Below are positions 52,447 to 58,802 of a stretch of 64,000 bases of DNA, piece by piece. The stretch is from Chitinophagaceae bacterium (GTDB lineage Bacteria > Bacteroidota > Bacteroidia > Chitinophagales > Chitinophagaceae). The position numbers were made by a program, and so were the translations under genes. Position 1 is the stretch's first letter. Each line of letters starts with the position of its first letter. The stretch is taken from assembly GCA_019638625.1 (NCBI GenBank), contig JAHBTK010000002.1, positions 1,054,001-1,118,000 on the forward strand. The letters are read 5' to 3'. The notes under the pieces were generated by a model. That model did no database searches and was not told where the DNA came from. It saw only the letters and a list, made by a program, of their open reading frames with translations.

Positions 52447-53454
52447 TTAGAGCAGTTGCTGCGCTACCAGGTATTCGGCTATCTGAACAGCGTTGGTGGC
52501 AGCCCCTTTGCGAAGGTTGTCACTCACTATCCACATGTTCAGGGTATTGGGGTTAGACTCATCCCTGCGCAACCTGCCTACAAACACCTCATCCTTTTCG
52601 TGGGCATCTTTTGGCATGGGGTACTGCGCATTGGAGGGATCATCCACCACCATCACACCCGGCGAGTGGCTTAGCAATTCCCTTACCTCATCCAGGTCAA
52701 AATCTTTTTCAAATTCAATATTCACGCTTTCGCTGTGGCCGCCCATGACCGGGATACGCACCGTGGTAGCGGTAACACGAATATTTTCATCCCGCATGAT
52801 TTTCTTTGTTTCATTCACCATTTTCATCTCCTCTTTTGTGTACCCGTTATCCAGGAATACATCGATCTGGGGAATTACGTTCATGTCTATTTCATACGTA
52901 TAGGCCATAGGGTATTCTTCTTTTGCCCCTTTTACCGATTTGTTTCTTTCGCCCATCATTTGCTCCACGGCTTTTACACCGGTACCGGTAACGCTCTGGT
53001 AAGTGCTTACCACTACTCTTTTGATATTGTATTTTTTATGCAGCGGATTCAACGCCACTACCATTTGTATGGTGGAGCAGTTAGGGTTGGCAATGATTTT
53101 ATCCTCCCTGGTCAAAGCGTCCGCATTGATCTCAGGTACCACCAATTTTTTAGTGGGGTCCATTCTCCAGGCGGAGGAATTGTCAATTACCGTAATGCCG
53201 GCTTCTGCAAACCGGGGCGCCTGGGCAAGCGATGTGCTTCCGCCGGCAGAGAATAAAGCTACAGCAGGTTTAGCAGCAATGGCATCATCCGCACTTACCA
53301 CCTTGTACTTCTTCCCCCTGAACTCCACTTCCTTGCCTATAGATTTTTCAGAAGCAACGGGAATTAATTCTGTTACCGGGAAGTTTCTCTCTGCCAGTAC
53401 CTGCAACATTTTGGAGCCTACCAAACCTGTGGCGCCTACTACTGCAACTTTCAT
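52447..53454 (-). CDS. asd: aspartate-semialdehyde dehydrogenase
   Basis: 335 residues, normal length. The NADP-binding GATGLVGSK motif is at residues 7-15, the catalytic cysteine is Cys126 in ANPNCSTIQ, and the substrate-binding basic/histidine block VMGGHSESVN follows at about residue 240. It reduces aspartyl phosphate to aspartate semialdehyde, the branch point to lysine/diaminopimelate, threonine, isoleucine and methionine. The 5' region holds its own promoter, a Lys/Thr/Ile-rich leader ORF and a terminator with an alternative fold, so regulation by attenuation is predicted. The gene is monocistronic; a terminator follows. Confidence 0.97.
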   Translation of the reverse strand: MKVAVVGATGLVGSKMLQVLAERNFPVTELIPVASEKSIGKEVEFRGKKYKVVSADDAIAAKPAVALFSAGGSTSLAQAPRFAEAGITVIDNSSAWRMDPTKKLVVPEINADALTREDKIIANPNCSTIQMVVALNPLHKKYNIKRVVVSTYQSVTGTGVKAVEQMMGERNKSVKGAKEEYPMAYTYEIDMNVIPQIDVFLDNGYTKEEMKMVNETKKIMRDENIRVTATTVRIPVMGGHSESVNIEFEKDFDLDEVRELLSHSPGVMVVDDPSNAQYPMPKDAHEKDEVFVGRLRRDESNPNTLNMWIVSDNLRKGAATNAVQIAEYLVAQQLL

Positions 53455-53480: not shown

Positions 53481-53553
53481 AAAAGAAAAAGCCTTTCCGT
53501 TTTGGAAAGGCCTCGAATATATCCGGTCATACAATACACTCTTAAACCTTTCC
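53481..53553 (-). promoter_or_regulatory. predicted transcription attenuator of asd
   Basis: Terminator: GCCTTTCC (53511-53504), loop AAAAC, GGAAAGGC (53498-53491), then TTTTTCTTTT; an 8-bp stem with an outer A-T and G-T pair. Antiterminator: the 5' arm CCTTTCC (53510-53504) can instead pair with GGAAAGG at 53553-53547, which lies in leader codons 17-19, extended by G-T and A-T pairs to ten. The folds exclude each other. A ribosome finishing the leader would cover the upstream arm and allow termination; a stall at the Lys/Thr/Ile codons would leave it free. The terminator sits 27 nt before the asd ATG. Confidence 0.7.
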
Positions 53554-53601
53554 CCTGAGGAACTGCTTCTTGGTGATCTTTGTATGCTTTATTATAGTCA
53601 T
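53542..53601 (-). CDS. Lys/Thr/Ile-rich leader peptide of asd
   Basis: ATG at 53601 to TAA at 53544-53542 encodes MTIIKHTKITKKQFLRGKV. Eleven of 19 residues are Lys (5), Thr (3) or Ile (3), and ten of these fall in the first 12 codons. These are end products of the pathway in which asd acts. The ORF begins about 8 nt after the -7 box, and its last codons include the antiterminator arm. No function other than as a ribosome sensor is suggested. Confidence 0.65.
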   Translation of the reverse strand: MTIIKHTKITKKQFLRGKV

Positions 53602-53609
53602 AGTGGGCG

Positions 53610-53640
53610 CAAAGGTAATCGTCCGGTTTGATTGTTCAAA
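53610..53640 (-). promoter_or_regulatory. promoter of the asd leader
   Basis: On the minus strand TTTG (53640-53637), a 19-nt spacer, and TACCTTTG (53617-53610) are an exact match to the Bacteroidota TTTG-N19-TAnnTTTG consensus. The start site is expected near 53605, a few nucleotides before the leader ATG. It lies within the short gap after the nuclease gene. Confidence 0.75.
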
Positions 53641-53655
53641 AAAAATATCAAAAAA

Positions 53656-55059
53656 TTATGTCAATCCTATTTCATAATGCATCTCGGGTATCTGCACATC
53701 CCGGAAATCTTTCTTGAGAAGTCTTGTTTTAAAGTCGAGCTGTACATCGTACTCCCCGTGCACCAGGAACAATGTTTTTACTTCCCGCGGCTCCTGGCAG
53801 GCTAAAAACTGCGAAAGGTCTTCATAATCGCCATGTGCGCTCATGCTCCTGATAGAGCCGATCTCGGCATTTACCTGGTGTTCCACGCCAAAGATGGAAA
53901 CTTCTTTTGCCCCTGCCAGCAGGCGCCCGCCCAGCGAGTTAGGCTCGCAATACCCCGTAAACAGCACCACATTCCGGCTGTTCTCCACATTGTTGCTGAT
54001 ATGATGCATAATACGCCCCCCTTCCGCCATTCCGCTGGCGGAGATGATCACGCAGGGTTCGTTGCGGTAATTCAGCAGTTTTGACTCCTCCACGGACTTT
54101 ATGAAACGCAACCCTTTAAACTCAAAGGGATCGCTATCCGATTTCATTATTTTTTGAATGGTATTATTAAAATACTGCGGGTAACTTTTGATGATCTCTG
54201 TGGCTTTCACGCTCAGGGGGCTGTCTACAAAATAATCCAGGTCCGGCAATCTCCGTTCCAGTTCCAGTTGGTTGAGTGCAAACAGGATCTCCTGGGTACG
54301 GCCTACGCTGAAGGCAGGTACGATCAGTTTACCCCTTTTTTGAAAGCATGTTTTTTCAATCCATTCCAGTAAATGATCGGGCGTAGTGGTAAAGTTTTCG
54401 TGCAGGCTGTTTCCGTAGGTTGACTCCAGGATTATATAATCGGCCTGCGGAAAGTTTTGAGGCGAACGGAGGATCATATCCCGGTACCTGCCCACATCAC
54501 CGCTGAAGCTGATCGCGGTCGTTTTGCCATTTTCCGTAACGCGTAAATGAACAGCGGCGCTACCGATAATATGACCGGTATCCGTATACAGCAACTCCAC
54601 GCCCTCTGCTATTTCAAACCATTTACCATAATCTACCTGGTGAAAGAAGCCCATTGCTTTTTTGGCATCCTCCGTATTGTATAACGGTATTATATAGGGT
54701 CTGCCTGACGCGGCCCGCCGCTTGTTGATGTATTTTACTTCATCTTCCTGGATGCTGCCGGAATCTTCCAATAAAACCCTTGTCAGTTCTTCGGTGGCCG
54801 GGGTGCAGAAAATTTTTCCTTTGAACCCGTCTTTTACAAGTTTGGGTATCAGCCCGCTGTGGTCGATATGTGCATGAGATAATACCAGGTAGTTTATTTC
54901 TCCGGGGTTGAAGCCCCAGTTCCGGTTCAGGTCGTCCGTTTCTTTTCCCAGCCCCTGAAACATTCCGCAGTCAAGCAGTATCCTGGTTCCGTTTTTAAGG
55001 GTCAGCAAATGTTTTGAACCTGTTACCGTTCTGGCAGCCCCGTGAAATGCTAACTTCAT
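53656..55059 (-). CDS. MBL-fold beta-CASP nuclease (RNA specificity domain)
   Basis: 467 residues. The metallo-beta-lactamase core shows LSHAHIDHSG (zinc ligands, about residues 57-66), TGHIIGSA and SFSGDVGR. The beta-CASP insert follows, then IISASGMAEGGRI and the RMMBL tail MSAHGDYEDLSQFL with the final HGEYDVQ. The family includes RNA 3'-processing and exonuclease enzymes of the CPSF-73 type; bacterial members of this length act on RNA, but the target is unknown. Its stop lies 16 nt from the -33 element of the asd promoter, and read-through would meet the asd attenuator. Confidence 0.9.
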   Translation of the reverse strand: MKLAFHGAARTVTGSKHLLTLKNGTRILLDCGMFQGLGKETDDLNRNWGFNPGEINYLVLSHAHIDHSGLIPKLVKDGFKGKIFCTPATEELTRVLLEDSGSIQEDEVKYINKRRAASGRPYIIPLYNTEDAKKAMGFFHQVDYGKWFEIAEGVELLYTDTGHIIGSAAVHLRVTENGKTTAISFSGDVGRYRDMILRSPQNFPQADYIILESTYGNSLHENFTTTPDHLLEWIEKTCFQKRGKLIVPAFSVGRTQEILFALNQLELERRLPDLDYFVDSPLSVKATEIIKSYPQYFNNTIQKIMKSDSDPFEFKGLRFIKSVEESKLLNYRNEPCVIISASGMAEGGRIMHHISNNVENSRNVVLFTGYCEPNSLGGRLLAGAKEVSIFGVEHQVNAEIGSIRSMSAHGDYEDLSQFLACQEPREVKTLFLVHGEYDVQLDFKTRLLKKDFRDVQIPEMHYEIGLT

Positions 55060-57431: not shown

Positions 57432-58727
57432 TTACTTTAATTTTCTTAACGCTGCGCCCAACGCCTGCAACATATCGCCAATAGACTCCTTTTTACAAGT
57501 GCCTACACTCAACCGGTACCACGCGGAATCCGGCGGAGCCCCGAACGCATAAAACGGCACTACAGCCAAACCGGCTTCGTTCAGCAGGTAGGAGGTCACG
57601 TCTTTTTGATCTTTCAGCAAAACACCATCAGCCGTTTTGCTGCCCGAGGCATCTACTTTGATGGTCAGGTATATAGCTGCCTGCGGGGCAATCGCGTCCA
57701 CAGGCAGGCCTTCGCCTTTTAACGTAAGAAAGCCATCATAAATTTTTTGCAGCCGGTAGGAAATTTCGGATTTAAAATGGTCAAGGTAAGTTTCTATCGC
57801 CTCCTTGTTTCGCAGAAATTTTGCCACTCCTTTTTGTTCTGCCATGGGCGCCCAGGCGCCTATATGCGATAAGATCGCTTTCATTTTATTAATGATCGCT
57901 GCCGGACCTAACGCCCATCCTACCCGCACTCCGGTAGCGGCAAAACATTTGCTGATCGCATCTACATACACTGTATAGTTTTTCATGGCGGGTCGCAACG
58001 ACACAGGGTCGTAATGCCGGATGTCTCCATATGTCAACTGCCAGTACATCTGGTCGTACAGCACATATAGCTTTTTTTCTCCATTTTTCCTGGAAGCATT
58101 TTCTTCCAGCACCATATCGCAGATATTTTCCAGGGCTTCCCTGGTAAACGTGGTGCCCGTTGGGTTTTGCGGAGAACAAAGTGCCAGGATAACAGCGCCT
58201 TTCAGGTGTGGTTTGATATCCCCCGGCGCGGGCATGAAATTATTTATCGCGCTGGCCGGTATTTCGCAATGCCGGCCTTCCACAAAATGCGTATAATGAT
58301 TGTTGTTCCAGGAGGGGACCGCATAAATTATCTTATCTCCCTTGTCGGCAACGGTCCTGAAAAATCCGTAAATAAGGGGGCGGCCGCCGGATGCCACCAG
58401 GATTTCCGAAGGCGCATACCGAAGCTTTTCTTTTTCCGCTACAAAACCGGCTATTGCTCCCCGCAAATCCGCATTTCCTTCCGCTGCCGGGTAATTGGTA
58501 AAATGTTCCCGGTAGGCGTTAATAATCTCTTCTTCCAGTTGTGACGGGATAGGGAATATCCGGGGGTCAAAATCTCCGATTGTAAAATTGTATATCTGAG
58601 CTCCCTGTGAAATTTTTTCCTTTATTTCACCACTGAGTTTGATTATCTCAGAGCCGATTAACGTTTCGGCAAGTTGCGAAAATCGCTCTTTGCCCGTTGT
58701 GACTGTCTGGTTTTTTGTGTGTTCCAT
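57432..58727 (-). CDS. PLP-dependent class I/II aminotransferase
   Basis: 431 residues from ATG 58727; an upstream ATG (58793) would place 22 extra hydrophobic residues before MEHTKNQ and would overlap the divergent MarR gene. Key segments are EILVASGGRPLIYGFFRTVADKGD, ALCSPQNPTGTTFTREAL, and VDAISKCFAATGVRVGWALG, where the Lys of ISKCF binds PLP. It is an aspartate-type fold I aminotransferase; the amino donor is not evident. A -7 box TAATTTTG lies 9 nt before the start. DUF4197 follows closely. Confidence 0.9.
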   Translation of the reverse strand: MEHTKNQTVTTGKERFSQLAETLIGSEIIKLSGEIKEKISQGAQIYNFTIGDFDPRIFPIPSQLEEEIINAYREHFTNYPAAEGNADLRGAIAGFVAEKEKLRYAPSEILVASGGRPLIYGFFRTVADKGDKIIYAVPSWNNNHYTHFVEGRHCEIPASAINNFMPAPGDIKPHLKGAVILALCSPQNPTGTTFTREALENICDMVLEENASRKNGEKKLYVLYDQMYWQLTYGDIRHYDPVSLRPAMKNYTVYVDAISKCFAATGVRVGWALGPAAIINKMKAILSHIGAWAPMAEQKGVAKFLRNKEAIETYLDHFKSEISYRLQKIYDGFLTLKGEGLPVDAIAPQAAIYLTIKVDASGSKTADGVLLKDQKDVTSYLLNEAGLAVVPFYAFGAPPDSAWYRLSVGTCKKESIGDMLQALGAALRKLK

Positions 58728-58736
58728 AATATGGCA

Positions 58737-58802
58737 CAAAATTACCAAGATAATCCCGGGCAGAGCCGTATAAATGCAAAATAAATTAATCAATTATTTT
58801 TG
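58737..58802. promoter_or_regulatory. divergent promoter region aminotransferase/MarR
   Basis: TAATTTTG on the minus strand (58744-58737) serves the aminotransferase gene, ending 9 nt before its ATG. TATTTTTG on the plus strand (58795-58802) serves MarR, ending 13 nt before 58816. Both fit TAnnTTTG; -33 elements are weak. The regulator could control both. Confidence 0.45.

Follow-up and report, generated by a model that had tools for sequence, protein, structure and literature searches.

A probable ribosome-mediated transcription attenuator in the asd leader of Chitinophagaceae

The leader of asd in a Chitinophagaceae bacterium reads, with a probability of roughly 0.87, as a ribosome-mediated transcription attenuator of the classical kind, which would probably turn asd on when aspartate-family amino acids run short. 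Lysine, threonine, methionine and isoleucine are made through asd, and the genome holds a single copy of the gene. The element lies between asd and a co-directional beta-CASP/metallo-beta-lactamase-fold gene (53656-55059, upstream) in the window, by which we mean the whole 64,000-nucleotide stretch that was analysed. When both strands of these 64 kb were scanned for a pattern of promoter, ATG, short ORF and G+C-rich terminator, the full arrangement was found to be unique, with two further pattern matches having, in place of such a terminator, no more than a purine arm facing a T-rich one.

Anatomy and conservation of the asd leader

The features of the leader, made from the letters of the minus strand and from comparison with relatives, are collected in Table 1. 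The original prediction had described an exact TTTG-N19-TAnnTTTG promoter, a 19-codon leader with 11 Lys/Thr/Ile codons, an intrinsic terminator just before asd and a duplicated GGAAAGG, and each of these was recovered. The promoter is present to the base at 53640-53610 (-) and the leader ATG stands 8 nt downstream of TACCTTTG, so that a 5' UTR of only a few nt is predicted. The leader carries 5 Lys, 3 Thr and 3 Ile codons (11 of 19), and the terminator arms with their U-run were located at 53514-53481, with asd starting from 53454. One copy of GGAAAGG runs from codon 17 into codon 19 (53553-53547) and the other forms the 3' arm of the terminator, and CCTTTCC is a possible pairing partner for either. 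That prediction included neither the helix P1, in which leader codons (53586-53573) are paired with GUGUAUUGUAUG 3' of the leader, nor the internal Met codons of many relatives. Compared with dinucleotide shuffles, the window leader folded better (z -3.1).

Table 1. Positions of the asd leader element in window coordinates, with the His-operon leader of the same genome
Feature	Sequence	Position	Strand	Basis and remarks
-33 element	TTTG	53637..53640	(-)	read from sequence
-7 element (TAnnTTTG)	TACCTTTG	53610..53617	(-)	sequence; 19 nt after TTTG
Leader ORF, 19 codons + stop	MTIIKHTKITKKQFLRGKV	53542..53601	(-)	sequence and conservation in 115 distinct relatives; ATG 53601-53599, stop 53544-53542
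Segment 1, P1 5' arm (codons 6-10)	CATACAAAGATCAC	53573..53586	(-)	arm-swap duplex test; covariation
Segment 2a, antiterminator 5' arm	GGGGAAAGGUUU	53544..53555	(-)	pairs with 53504-53514; swap test z -8.1; overlaps leader codons 16-19 and first base of stop codon
Segment 2b, P1 3' arm	GTGTATTGTATG	53528..53539	(-)	also pairs with next segment in antiterminator
Segment 3, antiterminator 3' arm and terminator 5' arm	GAGGCCTTTCC	53504..53514	(-)	common to both helices
Segment 4, terminator 3' arm + U-run	GGAAAGGCTTT	53481..53498	(-)	swap test z -14; covariation; arm 53498-53488, U-run reaches 53481
asd, aspartate-semialdehyde dehydrogenase, putative regulated gene		52447..53454	(-)	NCBIfam TIGR01296 and NF011456, above cut-off
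His-operon attenuator, own genome	MVKTAHHHHPFLPGR	G000:C5:158869-158996 (L226)		upstream of hisG; 30-genome set L246-L275

Relatives were drawn as asd loci from genus, family and named genomes, together with further upstream regions, and the same element was found before asd in 115 distinct Chitinophagaceae-related sequences (90 once close copies were removed), with Niastella yeongjuensis, Limnovirga soli, Sediminibacterium roseum and a metagenome-assembled Flavihumibacter genome among the named carriers. Conservation in relatives had been set beforehand as a test able to refute the prediction, and the leader ORF, regulatory codons, P1, antiterminator potential and terminator were all found to be kept. 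In Mucilaginibacter and Pedobacter, comparison of the regions upstream of asd showed no such element there. With E <= 1e-4 as the limit, a covariance model of the element matched 196 of the 299 family genomes searched, and a class-wide search at E <= 1e-5 gave matches in 15 of 295 sampled genomes, a figure that includes four from the Chitinophagaceae. Outside the family the latter threshold yielded 13 matches, of which 10 lie before asd, one before hisG and one before an aldo/keto reductase gene; one outside family (f42) resembles a sequence used in training the model (L064), and the other outside families are independent. Order-wide, matches outside the family were weak (E above about 1e-6) and look like mostly background in A+T-rich genomes, those inspected being some hisG leaders, one lysA leader and otherwise unrelated loci. 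The element is conserved across the Chitinophagaceae and sporadic in other families of the class.

Pairing of the leader RNA and its predicted switching

Three helices recur in the homologs, namely P1, the antiterminator and the terminator. Each was subjected to a swap test, comparing duplexes of cognate arms with duplexes whose arms were exchanged between species (arms set by alignment columns), and the cognate arms were stronger for P1 (z -11 to -13), the antiterminator (z -8.1) and the terminator (z -14), z-scores that overstate independence since related sequences share history; control tests on unrelated segments gave values near zero or of opposite sign. The covariation score of P1 and terminator over 100 distinct sequences was 0.372, compared to 0.209 +/- 0.007 when shuffled and 0.03-0.15 when slid, on an alignment that is model-fitted and hence leans towards the modelled structure. 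With an unfitted MAFFT alignment, covariation was likewise above its own shuffles. The antiterminator helix displayed no significant column covariation of its own in the homolog alignments, because its arms vary too little, and its support consists of conserved pairing and the energy-based swap test. A second partner for the 3' arm of P1, used in the antiterminator form, is the segment preceding the terminator (z -3.5 to -4.3), so that P1 and antiterminator exclude each other directly. The resulting layout of 1:2 / 2:3 / 3:4 is that of classical attenuators.

Folding was then constrained by a ribosome whose footprint was assumed to cover the region from 18 nt before the A-site codon to 13 nt past it. 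For the window sequence the antiterminator wins with the ribosome at codons 2-8, and the terminator wins with the ribosome anywhere from codon 9 to the stop as well as with no ribosome, the ribosome-free outcome following from the presence of P1 as a third, protecting helix. In a transcript snapshot ending after segment 3, a ribosome at codons 2-12 gave the antiterminator in 92-100% of 89 homologs and a ribosome at the stop codon in 0%; without a ribosome it formed in 74% of homologs, which makes the ribosome-free default uncertain. At equilibrium, and even with the ribosome stalled, the terminator is favoured over the antiterminator in most homologs, so that the switch must be kinetic there, though this was not the case for the window sequence. 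The logic originally proposed, that stalling at regulatory codons favours the antiterminator, is what constrained folding yields, both for the window sequence and for the 89 homologs.

In the mechanism that we propose, RNA polymerase would start a few bases before the leader AUG with a ribosome following it. Where aspartate-family aminoacyl-tRNAs are plentiful, the ribosome would reach the stop codon and cover the antiterminator 5' arm, segment 3 would then pair with segment 4, and transcription would end before asd. Where Lys- or Thr-tRNA (in many relatives also Met-tRNA) is scarce, the ribosome would stall within about codons 2-12 and disrupt P1, leaving segment 2 free for segment 3, so that no terminator would form and asd would be transcribed. 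If the leader were not translated at all, P1 would be expected to form and the terminator to win.

Leader codons and the leaders of other genes

The leader behaves as a reading frame across the family. Its ATG follows a TAnnTTTG or TAnnTTCG box by 7-9 nt in 78/115 distinct relatives, and when the ORF was picked by promoter spacing alone, blind to composition, the same start was obtained in 98/99. Within a conserved nine-codon block variation is greatest at the third position, one codon excepted, and a codon just outside P1 specifies Thr in 49/77 sequences through a mixture of ACA, ACC and ACG. From this conservation we infer that the leader is translated.

In the homolog set 51% of leader codons specify Lys, Thr, Ile or Met; dinucleotide shuffles give 33% (z 16-18) and the other reading frames 21-25%. 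The share stays at 51% with the ORF chosen by promoter spacing only. Residue by residue, the excess over shuffles is 2.8-3.0x for Met, 1.7x for Lys, 1.3x for Thr and 1.2x for Ile. By position, the four residues occupy 41-94% at codons 2-12, the positions at which a stalled ribosome frees the antiterminator in folding, and 0-18% from codon 14 on. As they reach about 74% in the part of the leader upstream of P1 (Lys 32, Met 16, Ile 14, Thr 11), P1 pairing is not their explanation. A point on the other side is that the core KHTKRTKK also preserves His and Arg codons, in part owing to P1. Set against the his-operon leaders of the same family, asd leaders have 15% Met at codons 2-5 (his leaders 0) and 40% Lys at codons 6-12 (his leaders 0.5%), with no difference in Ile. 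The interpretation first proposed holds at its core, the predicted sensed set being better given as Lys, Thr and Met: a place for Lys and Thr is well supported, whereas Ile, which is not enriched over his-operon leaders, is not separately supported, although the window leader has three Ile codons. The sensing of Met is supported for the family as a prediction, with MTIIKHTKITKKQFLRGKV itself having no internal Met codon.

Other leaders of the same family serve as natural controls. Those of the his operon share the layout (for example MVKTAHHHHPFLPGR in the same genome, and MNIYTHHHHHTLPKG) and are His-rich in 28/30 genomes. They resemble the asd leader in promoter-ATG layout, ORF length, a P1-like arm and the arrangement of antiterminator and terminator, and differ from it in carrying His codons in place of Lys/Thr/Met and the arm GGTAAGC instead of GGAAGG. 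In front of thrA the family has its own, different leaders, rich in Thr and Ile and ending in runs such as TSTIIIIITTR. A second copy of the asd-type element stands directly upstream of dapA in three genera (loci L215, L233-L235, L237, L238, L240-L242 and L245), with leaders such as MQLIKKHTKQVKKHSMYGEG, compared with MQKLMKHTKRTKKHSRHWEG in the asd copies of those genera. From asd to dapA copies Met falls from 11.5% to 1% and Thr from 18.8% to 10.4% with Lys staying at 37.5%, a shift that may reflect only one or two duplications. As read from these sequences, leader codons follow the target gene, with His before hisG, Thr/Ile before thrA and fewer Thr and Met before dapA.

The thrA leaders (L276-L305; own genome L298, G000:C8:139647-142085) end at a CAACCCGUUAAGGGUUG-like hairpin and contain a conserved stretch, CAUAUUAUCC...GGGC, that lacks a U-run. 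Their mechanism apparently differs from that of the asd attenuator.

Alternative readings, known systems and possible origin

A metabolite-binding riboswitch, for which the short ORF would be incidental and P1 and antiterminator would form a ligand-dependent fold, could explain why P1 covaries strongly and why the leader core CAUACAAAxCG is conserved in sequence. We regard it as very improbable, as the ORF has been retained, with a Thr codon whose third base varies freely and a constant distance from its promoter, the his and thrA leaders carry target-matched codons, and there is no aptamer-core-like sequence conservation outside the arms. No Rfam family matched either, in a search that the original prediction had called for: the asd motif (RF01732), the lysine riboswitch, the T-box and Bacteroid-trp (RF01692) gave no hit in the window at gathering score and none in the window stretch with E values of up to 10 allowed, nor did any appear in the 12 related loci searched to E 1. 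For Thr_leader (RF00506), too, the stretch yielded no covariance-model match with E values of up to 10. A known Rfam RNA family was accordingly rejected as the identity of the element.

Equally improbable, in our judgement, is that a basic, KHTKRTKK-like peptide arrests the ribosome on free lysine or another ligand (compare TnaC and SpeFL) and not via uncharged tRNA. In part of the family that core is almost invariant, but peptides as different as MNTIIIIKSKKMIS, MMIKKIKCAKKLFR and MNISCMKRKMKKPLL share only amino-acid composition, and several of the best-conserved residues overlap P1. Still less credible is a terminator that is unregulated or belongs to the upstream gene, combined with a small expressed peptide of independent function and no attenuation. 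The position of the element between the co-directional gene at 53656-55059 and asd would suit it, since a terminator alone could insulate asd; against it, the leader has its own promoter upstream, segments 1 and 2 are conserved with their pairing, and the codons change with the target gene. A functional small peptide was rejected because relatives keep composition rather than sequence.

The best reading of the asd leaders is that they would form a family of leader-peptide transcription attenuator, known in kind and absent from Rfam and the accessible literature. The E. coli thrL leader (Thr_leader, RF00506) is the Thr/Ile attenuator of thrABC. Like it, the asd leader has a peptide with end-product codons of the aspartate pathway, competing hairpins and a U-run terminator; unlike it, the asd leader would control asd rather than thrA, includes Lys and, in the family, Met codons, and has a near-leaderless ORF. 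Leader-peptide attenuation has been documented mainly in Proteobacteria and Actinobacteria (PMC2965389, 2010). In the Bacteroidetes, the Bacteroid-trp motif RF01692 is described as cis-regulatory (Weinberg et al. 2010, PMC2864571) and is similar to the asd leader in phylum and, by its name and listing, in amino-acid-pathway cis-regulation, but concerns trp rather than asd and has no match in the window. For Flavobacterium psychrophilum, of the same phylum, an account in outline (PMC9723704) reports 'strong clues' that amino-acid operons are preceded by leader-peptide attenuators, which likens those leaders to the present one; unlike the present analysis, that account mentions no asd family in its main text and offers no comparative treatment of such a family there. 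No asd attenuator in Bacteroidota was found in the accessible literature, and the survey of Lopatovskaya et al. 2010 (cited in PMC4833913) may predict such leaders.

The asd leaders would thus provide a Bacteroidota attenuator family with clear comparative support, in which several aspartate-family amino acids, not one end product, would be pooled at a branch-point enzyme and in which the leader begins almost at the predicted first transcript base. The his, thrA and dapA leaders of the same genomes make codon specificity directly testable, and asd gains a regulatory annotation in a large environmental family. Rather tentatively, one ancestral near-leaderless attenuator of Bacteroidia might have been duplicated and re-specified by its leader codons, to His for his, to Lys/Thr/Met/Ile for asd and to a Lys bias for dapA and lysA. 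If true, the attenuator family would be modular, and RNA pairing would limit which codons can be exchanged.

Some further leaders were observed in these searches. At L231 (G043) a leader MMKINTEYKRNKRSYLLG precedes an aminotransferase gene related to that of the window (57432-58793), and no MMKINTEYKRNKRSYLLG-like leader was found before the window copy. A lysA leader, MMIYKHKSSKRFLPKW, is followed by a terminator at L219 (G223), in another family of the order. At L317 (G626:C10:36670-38200) a Met/Cys-rich leader, MNNNAKHILNTINSNMMCCMMCI, is likewise accompanied by a terminator, with an aldo/keto reductase as the next long ORF, and is possibly a Met/Cys attenuator.
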